Source: Bdellovibrionia bacterium
GTDB lineage: Bacteria > Bdellovibrionota > Bdellovibrionia > Bdellovibrionales > JAGQZY01
Length of the DNA stretch: 64,000 nt
Direction: 5' to 3'
Assembly: GCA_030427805.1 (NCBI GenBank)
Contig: JAUICP010000003.1
Location: 579,758-643,757 of the forward strand
Positions within the stretch are counted from its first letter, which is position 1, and every line of letters starts with the position of its first letter. Below the pieces are notes generated by a model. The model ran no database searches and was not told where the DNA came from. It was given only the letters and a program-made list of their open reading frames with translations. Shown in pieces: positions 42,354 to 49,104 of the stretch. A program made the translations under genes and the position numbers.

Positions 42354-42531
42354 GGGATACCCTTTCCCTTTGTAGTTCAAGCTATCTTGAACCGCCTGAG
42401 TCTTTTTTACTCATTTGGGCTTAAATGCCCTTAAGTAATAAAACTTTGACTCTCTGATGGCAATTCAATAGCTTTTGAACTGGTAGTTTTAAAGCACCAT
42501 TGTTTTATACAAGATCTCGGGGGAGGACAAG

Positions 42532-43713
42532 ATCGAAATTTCAGAGAAAAATTCGATCCAGATTGCGATAGTTGGTGGAGGCCTGGCCGGTGGTCTAGCT
42601 CTACATTGCATTCGCAAGAACTACCCCAAGATCAAAGTTCATTTGTATGAGGCGAATGAAAAATTGGCGGGGAACCACACTTGGTGTTTTCACCGCTCTG
42701 ATTTATCGACCGAAGAAATGTCGCTTCTACAAGACCTTGTTAGTCACTGCTGGAATTCTTATCACGTCGCCTTTCCCCAGCATCTACGCCATTTCACTTC
42801 GGACTACATGGCCATAGAGAGCCAAGACTTCGCAAAAAAACTCATGGCGATGTATCTCGATTCAATTTCACTCAACCAAACCATCGAAGTGAACAAAAAA
42901 ACTGGGGATCTCACTCTCAATGGAAATTTGATCGAGACCGATTTAACAATTGATGCCCGGGGCTGGTGCGATGAAAAGATCTCCGCTCATCGAGCTTATC
43001 AGAAGTTTGTTGGCTGGGAGGTAGAATTCTCTCGAGACATTGATAGTAGTTCGGTGTTTTTGATGGATGCAAAGGTGGAGCAAATCGATGGGTATCGATT
43101 CATGTACACACTCCCCTATTCTCCGAAGCGCTTTTTAGTGGAAGACACCTACTACAGCAACGATGGCGAAATAAACTTTTCAGCAATCGAAGAACGCTTG
43201 AAAAAATATATAGGTACCAACTACGATGAAGACTTTAAAATTCTAAGAAAAGAATACGGAAGTCTTCCGCTAGAATTGGGTGAACCCATACCCCCACTTG
43301 CAAACTACAATTCTCGGTACATTGCGATTGGGACCCAGGCCGGCATAGCCCACCCGACAACGGGCTACAGCCTTCCGTCTTTGTTACAACAACTCACCGC
43401 TCTTGGGCTCACAGAAAAAGGCTTCAAGATCGATGAAGCTGCCCATAGGAATTTCAATCACCTTGTGGTTAGTAAAAATCAACAATCTTTCTTTCGCTTA
43501 CTCAACCGTATGTTGTTTCTCGCTTCTGAACCCGAGCAGAGAGTTCAGATCATGGATCGATTCTACACCCTACCGGAGTCTCTCATTCAGAATTTTTATC
43601 GCGGAAAACTCTCGGGTTTAGAAAAATTTAAAATACTCGCATTAAAACCACCCGTCCCCTTGCTTAAAGCGATGAGGTGTCTTTCAGAAAGGACTCAGCT
43701 ACATTATGGATAA
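42532..43713 (+). CDS. crtY: Lycopene beta-cyclase (CrtY type), non-canonical ATC start
   Basis: Makes beta-carotene from lycopene. FAD motif IAIVGGGLAGGLALH at the N-terminus, AGNHTWCFH, FLMDAKVEQIDGYRFMYTLP and GYSLPSLLQQL are CrtY signatures. These first 37 residues lie upstream of the first canonical start codon (TTG 42643), and a TAA at 42484-42495 region closes the frame above. The best start is ATC 42532, five nt after GGAGG, a layout matching the TonB receptor gene (GGAGGACAAC-ATG). ATT 42538 is second choice. The 393-residue length is normal. First gene of the carotenoid operon. Confidence 0.87.
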   Translation: MEISEKNSIQIAIVGGGLAGGLALHCIRKNYPKIKVHLYEANEKLAGNHTWCFHRSDLSTEEMSLLQDLVSHCWNSYHVAFPQHLRHFTSDYMAIESQDFAKKLMAMYLDSISLNQTIEVNKKTGDLTLNGNLIETDLTIDARGWCDEKISAHRAYQKFVGWEVEFSRDIDSSSVFLMDAKVEQIDGYRFMYTLPYSPKRFLVEDTYYSNDGEINFSAIEERLKKYIGTNYDEDFKILRKEYGSLPLELGEPIPPLANYNSRYIAIGTQAGIAHPTTGYSLPSLLQQLTALGLTEKGFKIDEAAHRNFNHLVVSKNQQSFFRLLNRMLFLASEPEQRVQIMDRFYTLPESLIQNFYRGKLSGLEKFKILALKPPVPLLKAMRCLSERTQLHYG

Positions 43714-44719
43714 TGTGCAAACTGACTTTCATACCGATTTAAACATCAACAAGGTCAATCGCGTCGTCGATAGAAACCTTTTGTCGCCAGTTAATGAGCT
43801 ACTTAAAAAACCCGGAAAGAGAATTCGCGAACAAGTTGTCAGACTCGGATTTTTATTGGCGCGCGAAGATCGCGAAATTGAGCCAAATGAAAATCAAGAA
43901 AAACTGATACAAGCCTTATCAGAGGTCGTAGAATCCATTCACCTCGGATCTCTCGTCGTCGATGATATTCAGGATCAAAGCCTGTCGCGAAGGGGCGAAC
44001 CTTCGCTGCATAGAAAGATAGGAGAACCCCTAGCAATTAATAGTGGTAACTTTCTTTATTTTTGGCCCATGAAATGGATCGAAGGCTTAAAACTTTCCGA
44101 AAAGCAACACCTCGAAATTTACCGAAGTTACTTTAATATGATGACCCACTCACACATGGGTCAGGCAATCGATTTAGGTACGCGAATCGACCAAGTTGAA
44201 TCCTTTGATGTTCCATCTTTGTGCCTAAAAAGCCTTGAATTGAAAACTGGAGAACTCATGGCTATGGCTATTGAGTTTGGAGCGATCGTCGCTGAGGCTT
44301 CTAAGGAGCGAAAGAGCTTTCTAAGGGAATTTGGCAAAAAATTTGGAGTCGCCCTCCAATGTTACGACGACATCGGCAATCTTCTGAAAAAGGGTGAAGA
44401 AAAGTATCTAGAGGATCTTGCATTAAGTCGACCCAGTTTTGTTTGGATCGCTGCCTCCAACCTTTGTTCAGCCTCACAATATGCCAAACTAAGAAGCCTC
44501 ACTTCGGAACTTGGCGTCGATAAAAATTCGACTACGATTCAAGAGATTGAAAACTGGTTAGAACGAAATAACTTTGTATCTTCTGCCACAAAAGAAGCAG
44601 ACGAAATATGCGCGGATGCCTTTCGAATACTCGAAAAAAAGGCGCGAGCCTCAACATTTACTAAATCACATTCTACAGCTCAATCCCTATGTGAAAGGAT
44701 CAAAAATGCTTACAGATAA
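43706..44719 (+). CDS. crtE: Geranylgeranyl diphosphate synthase (CrtE)
   Basis: Trans-isoprenyl diphosphate synthase. First Asp-rich motif DDIQD (residues 86-90), with RRGEPSLHRKIG after it; the second motif reads DDIGN and so has Asn in place of the last Asp. KPGKRIREQVVRLG binds the diphosphate. GGPP is the likely product, given the operon. ATG 43706 overlaps the crtY stop by 8 nt. Confidence 0.9.
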   Translation: MDNVQTDFHTDLNINKVNRVVDRNLLSPVNELLKKPGKRIREQVVRLGFLLAREDREIEPNENQEKLIQALSEVVESIHLGSLVVDDIQDQSLSRRGEPSLHRKIGEPLAINSGNFLYFWPMKWIEGLKLSEKQHLEIYRSYFNMMTHSHMGQAIDLGTRIDQVESFDVPSLCLKSLELKTGELMAMAIEFGAIVAEASKERKSFLREFGKKFGVALQCYDDIGNLLKKGEEKYLEDLALSRPSFVWIAASNLCSASQYAKLRSLTSELGVDKNSTTIQEIENWLERNNFVSSATKEADEICADAFRILEKKARASTFTKSHSTAQSLCERIKNAYR

Positions 44720-46271
44720 AAAACGTGTTGCTGTCATTGGTTCTGGATTCGGAGGCCTCTCAACGGCGATCCGTCTTCAATCGGCTGGCTATCAAGTTCA
44801 TATTTTCGAAAAGCGTGATCTTCCTGGTGGGCGAGCTTACGTCTATAAAGACAAAGGCTTTACCTTTGATGCCGGCCCCACAGTGATCACTGCTCCCCAC
44901 TGCCTTGAAGAGCTATTTGAAGTCAGCGGAACTCGCATGGATAAGTACGTTGAACTTCTTCCCGTCTTTCCGTTTTACAAACTACTTTGGGATGACGGGT
45001 ATTCGTTCGACTACTCCAACAACTTGGATGAATTGACTTCACAGATTAAAGAGAAATCACCGCAAGATCTCAAGGGCTACTTTGAATTCGTCGAATATTC
45101 AAAAAAGGTTTTCGATGAGGGCTACACTAAACTTGCCGACAAACCCTTTTTAAAGTTTTGGGATATGGTTAAGGTGGCACCGCAACTGGCGAGCCTTCGC
45201 GCTGACAGGAGTGTTTACAAAACAGTCGGTCGATTTATGAAGGATGAACACTTGCGCGAAGCCTTTAGTTTCCACTCACTTCTTGTTGGAGGGAATCCCT
45301 TTGCGACTTCTTCCATTTACACCTTGATCCACTACTTAGAGAGAAACTGGGGCGTGACCTTTCCAAAAGGAGGGACCGGCGCCCTCGTTCAGGGCCTCGT
45401 TAGACTTTTCAAGGACCTTGGAGGTTCAATTTCTCTCAACGAAGGTGTAGAGCAAATAGTTTGTGATAATGGAGTGGTCACCGCGATTCGCAGTGAGAGC
45501 GGACAAATTTATAATTGTGATGCCGTTGTATCCAATGCAGATGTGTACCATACCTACAAAAACCTTCTCAAAAGTGAAAAAAGGGTCGAGAAAACACGAA
45601 AGAAACTGGAGAAATCAAAGTACAGCATGAGCCTGTTTCTTATTTACTTTGGAACCAATAAAAAATTCGACAATCTCGCTCATCACAATGTTTTGTTTGG
45701 CCCGCGCTACAAGGGCCTCCTTGACGATATTTTTTACAAAGGCAAACTTCCAGAGGATTTCTCACTCTACCTCCACCGCCCTTCTCTGACGGACCCACAA
45801 ATGGCTCCGGAAGGTTGCGATGCCTGGTACGTACTTTCTCCTGTTGCACATAAGGGTCTTCTCGATGTGGATTGGAAAACTGAAGGCCCCAAGTATGCGC
45901 AAAAAATTATGCAGTACATGGAAGACAAGTACATGCCGGGACTTCAAGAAAGTGTCGTAACACAAAGAATTTTTACCCCCGATGACTTCGAAACCGAACT
46001 CAACAGTCACCTTGGAGCTGCCTTCTCCTTAGAGCCACGCCTCACGCAAAGTGCCTACTTTAGAACCCACAATAGAGATGACAACATTCCGAACCTCTAT
46101 TTTTCGGGAGCAGGCACCCACCCGGGAGCAGGTGTTCCGGGCGTCGTGAATTCAGGCAAGGCAACAGCCGATCTTTTGATCAGTGATCTCGGCGGAAACT
46201 ATGGCATCAACCAAGTTAATGAAACCGAGAAAATCGTTATTAACCGACAAAACCCAGAAGCTCAGCTTTAG
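44706..46271 (+). CDS. crtI: Phytoene desaturase (CrtI)
   Basis: FAD-dependent desaturase taking phytoene to lycopene. VAVIGSGFGGLSTAIRLQSAG, DLPGGRAYVYKDKGFTFDAGPTVI at the N-terminus and SGAGTHPGAGVPGVVNSGKA at the C-terminus are diagnostic. ATG 44706 (AAGGA 7 nt upstream) trims a spurious extension and gives 521 residues, the usual length. It overlaps the crtE end by 14 nt. Confidence 0.95.
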   Translation: MLTDKKRVAVIGSGFGGLSTAIRLQSAGYQVHIFEKRDLPGGRAYVYKDKGFTFDAGPTVITAPHCLEELFEVSGTRMDKYVELLPVFPFYKLLWDDGYSFDYSNNLDELTSQIKEKSPQDLKGYFEFVEYSKKVFDEGYTKLADKPFLKFWDMVKVAPQLASLRADRSVYKTVGRFMKDEHLREAFSFHSLLVGGNPFATSSIYTLIHYLERNWGVTFPKGGTGALVQGLVRLFKDLGGSISLNEGVEQIVCDNGVVTAIRSESGQIYNCDAVVSNADVYHTYKNLLKSEKRVEKTRKKLEKSKYSMSLFLIYFGTNKKFDNLAHHNVLFGPRYKGLLDDIFYKGKLPEDFSLYLHRPSLTDPQMAPEGCDAWYVLSPVAHKGLLDVDWKTEGPKYAQKIMQYMEDKYMPGLQESVVTQRIFTPDDFETELNSHLGAAFSLEPRLTQSAYFRTHNRDDNIPNLYFSGAGTHPGAGVPGVVNSGKATADLLISDLGGNYGINQVNETEKIVINRQNPEAQL

Positions 46272-46288: not shown

Positions 46289-47224
46289 TTGGAAATAAGC
46301 CGATCTGATTATGAAAATTCTCTCGCTCATTGTGAGCAGACTATGAACAAAGCAGCAAAAAGTTTTTCTTTTGCTGCTGTTCTGTTTGGAAAAGAGCAAC
46401 TCGAGGGTTCGCAACTTCTCTACGGCTGGTGTCGACACTGTGATGATGCCGTCGACGAAGCCCCCAACCAAGAGTTGGCCAGCAATGAACTCGATCGTCT
46501 GAAAGAAATGACTGAGCTATCAATTAACACGAAAGAAAAATTGCATGAAAACTCTTTTATAGCGCTCAGACACTTGGCCACTAAATACCATATTCCATCC
46601 CAGTACCCCAAAGACTTAATCGCTGGCATGGAGATGGATGTAAAGGGTTTTAATTACATTGACCAAAATGACTTAGAACTCTATTGCTATCGCGTAGCAG
46701 GGGTCGTCGGCTTGATGATGTCCCATATTACCGGCCTTAAGAGAGAAAACGCTCTCAATCAAGCGGTGGCAGCGGGTATGGCCATGCAGATGACAAATAT
46801 TTCAAGAGACATTGTCGAAGACTACGAACGTGGACGAATCTACCTTCCGCAATCCTGGTTTGAGCAAGCAAATTTAAATTATCCACCACGTGACGCCGAA
46901 GAACTAAAGCAAAGTGCTGCTCACTTAATGCCTCGACTCCTCGATCGCGCCGATGAACTCTATAGTCTTGGAAGACAAGGACTCATATACCTTCCTATTC
47001 GCGCCGCACTTGCGGTCTCTGTAGCGATTGAGATTTACTCGGAAATCGGTAACGAAGTCCTCAAGAAAAAAGAACAGGCCTGGGAGGAACGTTGCTACGT
47101 TCCCAAGTGGAAAAAATATCTTTTGGCCGGCATTGGCGTGACTCGAGTACTTTCTACAATTCCTAAACGACTTATCCAAAAAAGAAAGCCCCAGGCCATT
47201 AAGACAGTTTGGAGGTTCCAATGA
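46289..47224 (+). CDS. crtB: Phytoene synthase (CrtB)
   Basis: Condenses two GGPP to phytoene. First Asp-rich motif DDAVDE (residues 52-57) and second QMTNISRDIVEDYERGRIYLP are conserved. TTG 46289 is the start in frame, 17 nt after crtI; no strong ribosome-binding site is seen. The stop overlaps the next gene as ATGA. Confidence 0.94.
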   Translation: MEISRSDYENSLAHCEQTMNKAAKSFSFAAVLFGKEQLEGSQLLYGWCRHCDDAVDEAPNQELASNELDRLKEMTELSINTKEKLHENSFIALRHLATKYHIPSQYPKDLIAGMEMDVKGFNYIDQNDLELYCYRVAGVVGLMMSHITGLKRENALNQAVAAGMAMQMTNISRDIVEDYERGRIYLPQSWFEQANLNYPPRDAEELKQSAAHLMPRLLDRADELYSLGRQGLIYLPIRAALAVSVAIEIYSEIGNEVLKKKEQAWEERCYVPKWKKYLLAGIGVTRVLSTIPKRLIQKRKPQAIKTVWRFQ

Positions 47225-47943
47225 CTGAATTTGAAAAGCAACTTCACAGCAAATCAACTTTTAAAAAAGAGAAGAAACTCCCCTCTACCAATGAAGTTCC
47301 TCTGCAAAATACGCGCGCCCCTCAAAAAAGCATCTTTGATGACCTTACAAATACCTCTTTAGACGGCAATACATACTGGCAAGATTTTAAAATCTATGTG
47401 GGTCGAATTCGCCAATTCACGAAGCATGACTGGATTATTTATAGCCTCTGGGTCGGCATGATGCTCGGACTCTTCTTTAGTCTTGCGACCTTTGTAAGTG
47501 TGGGAAGGTTTAATGACTCGGGCCTTCCATTTTTTACATGGAATATACCCATTGGCGCACTTATTTTCACAACTGCCATCGCCATCGATACCATCGGCCA
47601 TCGCACAATCTATCGCGAAGAACTGCGAAAGGGAGAATCTCTCGTCCACGGTGTTACGATTTTTTGTGGTGTAACAAGTATTATGTTTCTTTGTTTCGCA
47701 AAGGACTACCCCGAGACCTTTCGCTACCCAGCCTTGTCTCTACTTATTCTCAGCTTTTTTTACAGTGCTATTGATGAAGCCCTCCATTGGGTGAGATACT
47801 TTAAACACAAATCGGATCGAATTGAAATGTGGAGCCATTTTGGTATTTTTCTGGGCCACTCAATCATGAGCCTGAGTTGGTGGTTTTGGTTTGACCAAGG
47901 TTACCTGGGCGTAGAAGAAACATTCGATCTGCTTAAAATGTAG
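47221..47943 (+). CDS. Unassigned polytopic membrane protein of the carotenoid operon
   Basis: A 240-residue protein starting at ATG 47221 with GGAGG five nt upstream and an ATGA overlap with crtB, so it is a true operon member. A hydrophilic N-terminus (about 70 residues) is followed by 4-6 TM helices. Polar residues typical of metal sites lie in or near the membrane: His127 with Tyr131, Glu133, Glu134 (DTIGHRTIYREE), His143, Glu186-x-x-His189 (DEALHW), His206 and His213. There is no match to CrtZ or CrtW histidine boxes that I can see. It may be a carotenoid hydroxylase or ketolase acting before the glycosyltransferase, but this is inference. Confidence 0.75.
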   Translation: MTEFEKQLHSKSTFKKEKKLPSTNEVPLQNTRAPQKSIFDDLTNTSLDGNTYWQDFKIYVGRIRQFTKHDWIIYSLWVGMMLGLFFSLATFVSVGRFNDSGLPFFTWNIPIGALIFTTAIAIDTIGHRTIYREELRKGESLVHGVTIFCGVTSIMFLCFAKDYPETFRYPALSLLILSFFYSAIDEALHWVRYFKHKSDRIEMWSHFGIFLGHSIMSLSWWFWFDQGYLGVEETFDLLKM

Positions 47944-47955
47944 ATTTGGATTAAA

Positions 47956-49104
47956 GTGTTAGCGAACATCAGTTACATCTTAATGGCACTCGGGACGTGT
48001 ATTTTTATAATACGACTGTCCCCTCAACTCTTGGATTTTATTCCTGGATTCGGCGTACCTAGCGATCCTGGTGCAGGCGTTCAACCGTTTAAAAAACTTC
48101 CCAGTGTTTCTATTATAATTCCCGTACGCAACGAAGAGAAGAACATTCTCGGTATTCTGAGTTCTATGACTCAGTTAACTTACAAAGATTACGAGGTCAT
48201 CGTCGTCGACGATAATTCAACCGATAATACGGTCGAAATTATCAGAACAATTCCCATGGATAAAATTCGTTTAGTGGAGGCAGGAGAGAAGCCTTCTAGC
48301 TGGATTGGAAAAAGTTGGGCGTGCCATGTTGGAGCCGGAGAAGCTCAGGGGGAGTATCTCCTTTTTACAGATGCCGATACAGTCCATTACAAAAAATCCC
48401 TGGATCGTGCCATTTCTTTTATGACAAAAAGAAACTTGGACATGATTTCGGCTCTTCCCTATCACATCACTGAAGAGAGCTGGGAAGAACTGATGGGCCC
48501 CTTTCATATGCTCGTATTGGCGGTCACCTCTCCTTTCACAATTCCAACCCCACAAAGACTCTTTGCCATTGGACAGTATCTCCTCTTGAGAAGAGAAGCC
48601 TATGACAAAATTGGAGGCCACGCAGAGGTAAAAGCTGAATTGGCCGAAGATATTGCACTCGCTAGAAATATCCTAAAAGCAGATTTGAGTTACTTGGTCT
48701 ACCCAGAGGCCAAACTTTATCAAGTTCGAATGTTTGATAGCATTTTTAATTTTTTCAAGGGATGGAGAAGGTTGAATGCCATTGGCTTTGGCTACTCCGA
48801 TTGGAAAACCGGCATAGAAAGCTTCCTTATGGTTGCTGCCTTTATTAATTCTTTTTTTATGTTTGAGTCTTGGGTCAACGTAGTCACACTTCTTGTGCTC
48901 GCGACATTTGTGAGTCTCAACCAAAGAAAATATGGTAATTTCTTAGTTTTCGGATCAACACTATTCTTGCCATTCTCGATACTCATGTTTGTAGCAACTG
49001 CCATCGGTGGAATGGTAGATCGCTTTATCACCAAAAAAGTAGAGTGGCGGGGTCGTAAATACGAATTCGATGATGAAAAAACCACCGCTGCTCGTCTCGA
49101 GTAG
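47956..49104 (+). CDS. Membrane glycosyltransferase family 2, probably carotenoid-specific
   Basis: GT-A domain SIIIPVRNEEKNI, VVDDNSTDNT, LLFTDADT with an N-terminal TM helix and two C-terminal TM helices (about 290-350), and a FFKGWRRLN processive-type block. This layout matches CrtQ/CruC-like carotenoid glycosyltransferases. Last gene of the crt operon, 12 nt after the membrane protein, GTG start. Glycosylation requires a hydroxyl, which the preceding gene would have to install. Confidence 0.82.
   Translation: MLANISYILMALGTCIFIIRLSPQLLDFIPGFGVPSDPGAGVQPFKKLPSVSIIIPVRNEEKNILGILSSMTQLTYKDYEVIVVDDNSTDNTVEIIRTIPMDKIRLVEAGEKPSSWIGKSWACHVGAGEAQGEYLLFTDADTVHYKKSLDRAISFMTKRNLDMISALPYHITEESWEELMGPFHMLVLAVTSPFTIPTPQRLFAIGQYLLLRREAYDKIGGHAEVKAELAEDIALARNILKADLSYLVYPEAKLYQVRMFDSIFNFFKGWRRLNAIGFGYSDWKTGIESFLMVAAFINSFFMFESWVNVVTLLVLATFVSLNQRKYGNFLVFGSTLFLPFSILMFVATAIGGMVDRFITKKVEWRGRKYEFDDEKTTAARLE

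Follow-up and report, generated by a model that had tools for sequence, protein, structure and literature searches.

A conserved membrane protein that appears to stand in for CrtZ in carotenoid operons of Bdellovibrionota is a candidate beta-ring hydroxylase

A carotenoid operon of a Bdellovibrionia bacterium carries, directly after crtB, a gene (here called X) for a conserved membrane protein that acts, on the genomic evidence, as a functional stand-in for CrtZ: the two genes are exchanged for one another from genome to genome and at the position that follows crtB. With fair confidence, we take X to be a carotenoid end-group oxygenase embedded in the membrane, and most likely one that hydroxylates beta-rings in place of CrtZ; it would then carry out a known reaction and probably represents a new protein family of carotenoid ring hydroxylase.

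The operon lies in a window of 64,000 nucleotides (the whole stretch of DNA analysed here) and consists of crtY, GGPP synthase, crtI, crtB, X and a GT2 glycosyltransferase gene, in that order, packed compactly on the plus strand (Table 1). Translation and the sequence confirm X as the ATGA-coupled open reading frame of the initial annotation: it runs from an ATG at 47221 to a TAG at 47941-47943, encodes 240 amino acids, and its start codon overlaps the crtB stop (ATGA, 47221-47224); 12 bases separate the end of X from the start of the downstream glycosyltransferase gene. The description of the operon as of beta-carotene type, without CrtZ or CrtW, also holds, as CrtY scores 294 bits against a TIGR01789 cut-off of 215 and homology searches found neither CrtZ nor CrtW in the operon or elsewhere in the host genome; other host proteins of the candidate superfamilies comprise two more FA_hydroxylase and eight FA_desaturase proteins. 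At the 5' end of crtY (window 42500-42580), the stretch leading up to the FAD-binding motif contains no ATG, GTG or TTG, and a strong Shine-Dalgarno sequence (GGGGGAGG) precedes an in-frame ATC, an arrangement repeated in the sister genome (L036); a non-canonical start codon is probable from these sequences.

Table 1. Genes of the carotenoid operon, with their positions in the window and the basis of assignment.
Feature	Position	Strand	Basis
crtY, lycopene beta-cyclase; start uncertain	42532..43713	+	TIGR01789 1.4e-87, above cut-off
GGPP synthase (crtE-like polyprenyl synthetase)	43706..44719	+	PF00348 2.8e-43
crtI, phytoene desaturase	44706..46271	+	TIGR02734 1.2e-200
crtB, phytoene synthase	46289..47224	+	PF00494 2.5e-61; NF042419 5.8e-66
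X, predicted cytosol-facing (di-)metal carotenoid beta-ring hydroxylase, 5-TM	47221..47943	+	translation, conservation, models, positive-inside, displacement by CrtZ
GT2 glycosyltransferase, HpnB/CruG-like, GTG start	47956..49104	+	PF00535 8.1e-28; TIGR03469/NF045692 below cut-off

The relatives of X number at least 58 distinct sequences and come from Bdellovibrionota, Myxococcota and a small number of other groups. Homologues occur in 47 of 369 Bdellovibrionota genomes (E <= 1e-4), a profile search among these genomes adding only two marginal matches, and we collected 57 X loci from GTDB species genomes, including Polyangiaceae and Kofleriaceae (Myxococcota) and one Sericytochromatia MAG. The family is sharply bounded, at about 45-60 per cent identity and without distant paralogues; plasmid and viral collections held no relatives, and a literature search found no paper on X or on Bdellovibrio CrtZ. 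The profile search proposed in the initial annotation gave no match to any family, and so none to a non-enzymatic one: comparison with Pfam, NCBIfam and PDB sequences turned up no relative. One match to Frizzled (E 0.018) was rejected as chance, having been seen in one of 52 members.

The His and Glu residues that had looked conserved in the single sequence are truly so over the 58 homologues. They fall into four motifs, D123xxxH127, E139xxxH143, D185-E186xxH189W and D199xxE202xxxH206...H213. D70, D123, H127, E139, H143, D185 and E186 never vary among the 58 distinct sequences, nor do R192, E202, S205, H206 and H213, whereas H189 varies once (Gln in L075) and is thus not strictly needed; R128 and W204 are not invariant across the enlarged homologue set. 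The first 50 residues are genus-specific, most homologues beginning near residue 48.

Two AlphaFold models of the family agree on an amphipathic helix followed by five long helices (the second, for a homologue and with 45 sequences, reached pLDDT 95.6 and pTM 0.89), residues 1-50 of X being poorly predicted. The models place the conserved acid and His residues on one face of the membrane, where four of the helices end or begin: D123/H127 at the end of TM2, E139/H143 at the start of TM3, D185-E186/H189 at the end of TM4, and D199/E202/H206/H213 at the start of TM5. Loops on the motif face carry about 3 Lys plus Arg each, as against 0.4-0.8 on the other side, and by the positive-inside rule the site is therefore predicted to be cytosolic, as are the metal sites of CrtZ-type and desaturase-type enzymes. 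The residue pattern, as read from sequence and model, fits a cytosolic metal site, and of the two kinds of site first suggested for X, di-iron or heme, a di-metal centre is the likelier, since there are four carboxylate/His pairs plus D185 and H213.

The second model is a confident one, and comparison with known structures gave no convincing known fold or match to any oxygenase: Foldseek searches of the models against the PDB and BFVD returned nothing significant. The top VIA-align match was TSPO (Z 9.3 over 140 residues, rmsd 4.1), a five-TM protein historically tied to carotenoid operons, and this match would suit X as a non-catalytic, TSPO-like membrane protein that serves the crt enzymes as scaffold, chaperone or carotenoid carrier. 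We regard such a role as very unlikely: Z values below about 13 are common for helical bundles, TspO is not among the Pfam matches listed for 52 members, the clustering of nine invariant acid/His residues at one face points to catalysis or metal binding, and one would not expect CrtZ to take the place of a scaffold, as it does of X (see below). The VIA matches to TSPO, PhoU and TMEM120 all score too low to be informative.

X might also be a lipocone-type (Wok/DUF2238-like) enzyme acting on phosphate-linked isoprenoid lipids, a possibility raised by motif resemblance and by a report of a Wok subfamily coupled to, or next to, carotenoid genes (PMC12419801). Like Wok/DUF2238 proteins (YjdF, PF09997), X carries acid/His motifs where successive TM helices end, with a lipocone-like His-Glu-acid pattern; compared by eye, its ExxxH, ExxHW and DxxExxxH resemble the YjdF-type DRxxH, ExxEW and DxxDxxxD in order and spacing, and H143, E186 and E202/H206 are compatible with a lipocone active site of His on H2, Glu on H3 and Asp on H4. 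However, profile comparison was not significant (hhalign of X against 10 DUF2238 sequences, P = 0.14), and a three-block profile scored no better than decoys, in a test made slightly conservative by the few X sequences in the decoy set. DUF2238 is absent among the 25 most-matched Pfam families listed for 52 X members (E <= 10), and the DUF2238 protein that the host does possess is encoded by another gene. The predicted orientation is also opposite, the site of X facing the cytosol while an outward opening is predicted for 14 of 17 membrane lipocone families (PMC12419801), and lipocone chemistry would leave the exclusion of CrtZ unexplained. We regard a lipocone-type function, too, as very unlikely.

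In several phyla X is nearly always found within a crt operon. On almost every contig with enough flank among the 57 loci, crtB lies directly 5' of X. The usual gene order is GGPPS-crtI-crtB-X, in many cases with crtB and X sharing the four bases ATGA, and CrtY lies upstream or nearby. One locus (L075) holds only CrtY, X and a glycosyltransferase together, which places X after cyclisation. Across the 369 Bdellovibrionota genomes, X is present in 47, CrtY in 66 and both in 45 (Fisher p 5e-39). Several other genes were noted around these pathways. Next to X, on its 3' side, the permease and ATPase of a conserved ABC-2 type transporter are encoded in L038, L042, L048, L049, L059, L065 and L090, possibly for pigment export. 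A second, divergent CrtY-like protein (24-30% identical) is encoded outside crt operons in L178, L179, L180, L181, L182, L183, L184 and L186, and the X-negative genome G156 has a microbial rhodopsin gene near its crt genes (L176:2272-3081).

Inspection of the CrtY-positive genomes that lack X turned up a CrtZ protein in G318, and with it as query we searched all 68 genomes with CrtY or X, leaving out one match in G335 to a 378-aa FA_hydroxylase relative. CrtZ was present in 10 of 21 X-negative, CrtY-positive genomes and in 1 of 47 X-positive genomes (p 1.1e-5); the corresponding counts for intact crt operons only are 8 of 10 and 1 of 47 (p 2.4e-7). The genomes compared are mostly MAGs; the exclusion persists in high-quality genomes only (p 2.8e-5) and when counted by genus (p 3.3e-4). 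X and CrtZ are exchanged within families f4, f8 and f10 and within genus g105, so the pattern does not reflect a single lineage. In G215 the operon reads GGPPS-CrtI-CrtB-CrtZ (L207), with CrtZ in the slot of X directly after crtB, and in G318 CrtZ abuts crtB convergently (L170). The sole genome with both genes, G353, has an X interrupted by an in-frame stop and a frameshift (N-terminal part, L079:8880-9519); as this genome is a MAG, an assembly error is possible, but if the two genes are redundant, X would be expected to decay where CrtZ is present. Taken with the crt linkage and the co-occurrence with CrtY, this mutual exclusion strongly supports X as the prime candidate for an undescribed carotenoid-modifying step, as first proposed.

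Exclusion could, on the other hand, mean that the two proteins lead to different end products and do not share a reaction. X might be another end-group enzyme (a C4 ketolase, 2-hydroxylase, epoxidase, desaturase or psi-end hydratase), with the X and CrtZ lineages making different final pigments, and the linkage and co-occurrence data would fit this as well. The host has a lone CruF homologue (PF04240, E 1.2e-43; L187:7597-8448) with no carotenoid gene around it, and another CruF homologue adjoins X in L061; the product may therefore be a monocyclic glycoside, with X acting on ring or tail. We nevertheless hold another end-group activity to be unlikely, as X occurs with CrtW in three genomes and, when intact, never with CrtZ, and as CrtZ fills its slot after crtB in G215. 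The three genomes with X and CrtW are G322, G224 and G353, whereas CrtW in X-negative genomes always adjoins CrtZ (G024, G240, G147). Coexisting with CrtW, which elsewhere pairs with CrtZ, X thus behaves like CrtZ and not like CrtW.

CruF also bears on the glycosyltransferase. The name "beta-carotene glycoside operon" given at first stands as to the GT2 gene, which does follow X; the glycoside is not established, the enzyme matching HpnB/CruG at family level only and a CruF homologue lying elsewhere in the genome, so that the GT might instead glycosylate a CruF hydroxyl. A GT homologue adjoins X in 12 loci, most X operons having none adjacent, and the best GT homologues of the X-negative genomes G042 and G024 lie beside CrtZ or CrtW-CrtZ. 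The CrtW loci of G322, G224 and G353 carry, as assigned from sequence, CruF, an acyltransferase and a GT; we had considered that in G322 and G224 this GT depends on the hydroxyl made by X, and dropped the idea because CruF lies beside the same GT. These CrtW-CruF-acyltransferase-GT clusters (L215:7225-11516, L216:2098-5485, L211:6718-10709) lie apart from the X operon that each of these genomes also has, and appear salinixanthin-like, for a putative acyl-glycoside; the L215 cluster additionally holds a Blh-like retinal-forming dioxygenase.

An OlsE-like FA_hydroxylase gene (FAH8) was likewise considered as an alternative to X. It is near X in 8 of the 57 loci (L038, L042, L046, L049, L059, L069, L079, L090) and with CrtZ in 2, and it lies directly after crtB in the X-negative genomes G029 and G240 (L172:3754-4536, L185:3093-3854). 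Since these two genomes also have CrtZ, and since FAH8 coexists with X elsewhere, we rejected it as an alternative and regard it as an add-on function that may act on carotenoid or lipid.

CrtZ, CrtW/CrtR and CruF do not account for X by homology. CrtZ (the bacterial beta-carotene 3-hydroxylase, PF04116) is, like X, a small membrane protein of beta-carotene operons with conserved His-rich motifs, yet the two have no sequence match: PF04116 gave none at E <= 1 and is not one of the 25 listed families that matched across 52 homologues (E <= 10). X has five predicted TM helices and D/ExxxH pairs on four of them, and lacks the HxxxH...HxxHH His boxes of CrtZ. CrtW and CrtR, ring oxygenases of the FA_desaturase superfamily (PF00487), are also membrane proteins of carotenoid metabolism; PF00487 matched 3 of 52 members of the X family (best E 2.4), and the FA_desaturase histidine boxes are absent. 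CruF shares with X its membrane nature and a GT2 partner of the same broad family as the neighbour of X, and PF04240 gave no match to X at E <= 1 and is absent among the families listed for 52 members (E <= 10); the host CruF is a true PF04240 protein, separate from X.

Returning to a CrtZ-replacing hydroxylase, the most economical mechanism for X is that of a non-heme (di-)iron, O2-activating hydroxylase of beta-rings. Four TM helices would gather D123-H127, E139-H143, E186-H189 and E202-H206, plus D185 and H213, on the cytosolic face, where they may form the ligands of a di-metal centre, either non-heme di-iron or another. Using electrons supplied by a redox partner in the cytosol, this centre would activate O2 and place a hydroxyl, most likely at C3, on the beta-rings of beta-carotene, the product of CrtY; cryptoxanthin- or zeaxanthin-type products would result; in operons with an adjacent GT2, including that of the host, this hydroxyl could then be glycosylated. 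We see about an even chance that X forms a new structural class of membrane di-metal oxygenase, built of four helices with one carboxylate/His pair each, unrelated to CrtZ/BCH, CrtR, CrtW, P450 and other known carotenoid hydroxylases, and exchanged with CrtZ several times in Bdellovibrionota.

If X is indeed such a hydroxylase, it would be a new enzyme, unrelated in sequence, for a reaction on which xanthophyll biosynthesis and the commercial production of zeaxanthin and astaxanthin depend, as well as a compact membrane protein of high conservation that may carry a new di-metal site. It would also explain how Bdellovibrionota and some Myxococcota might produce hydroxylated carotenoids in the absence of CrtZ.
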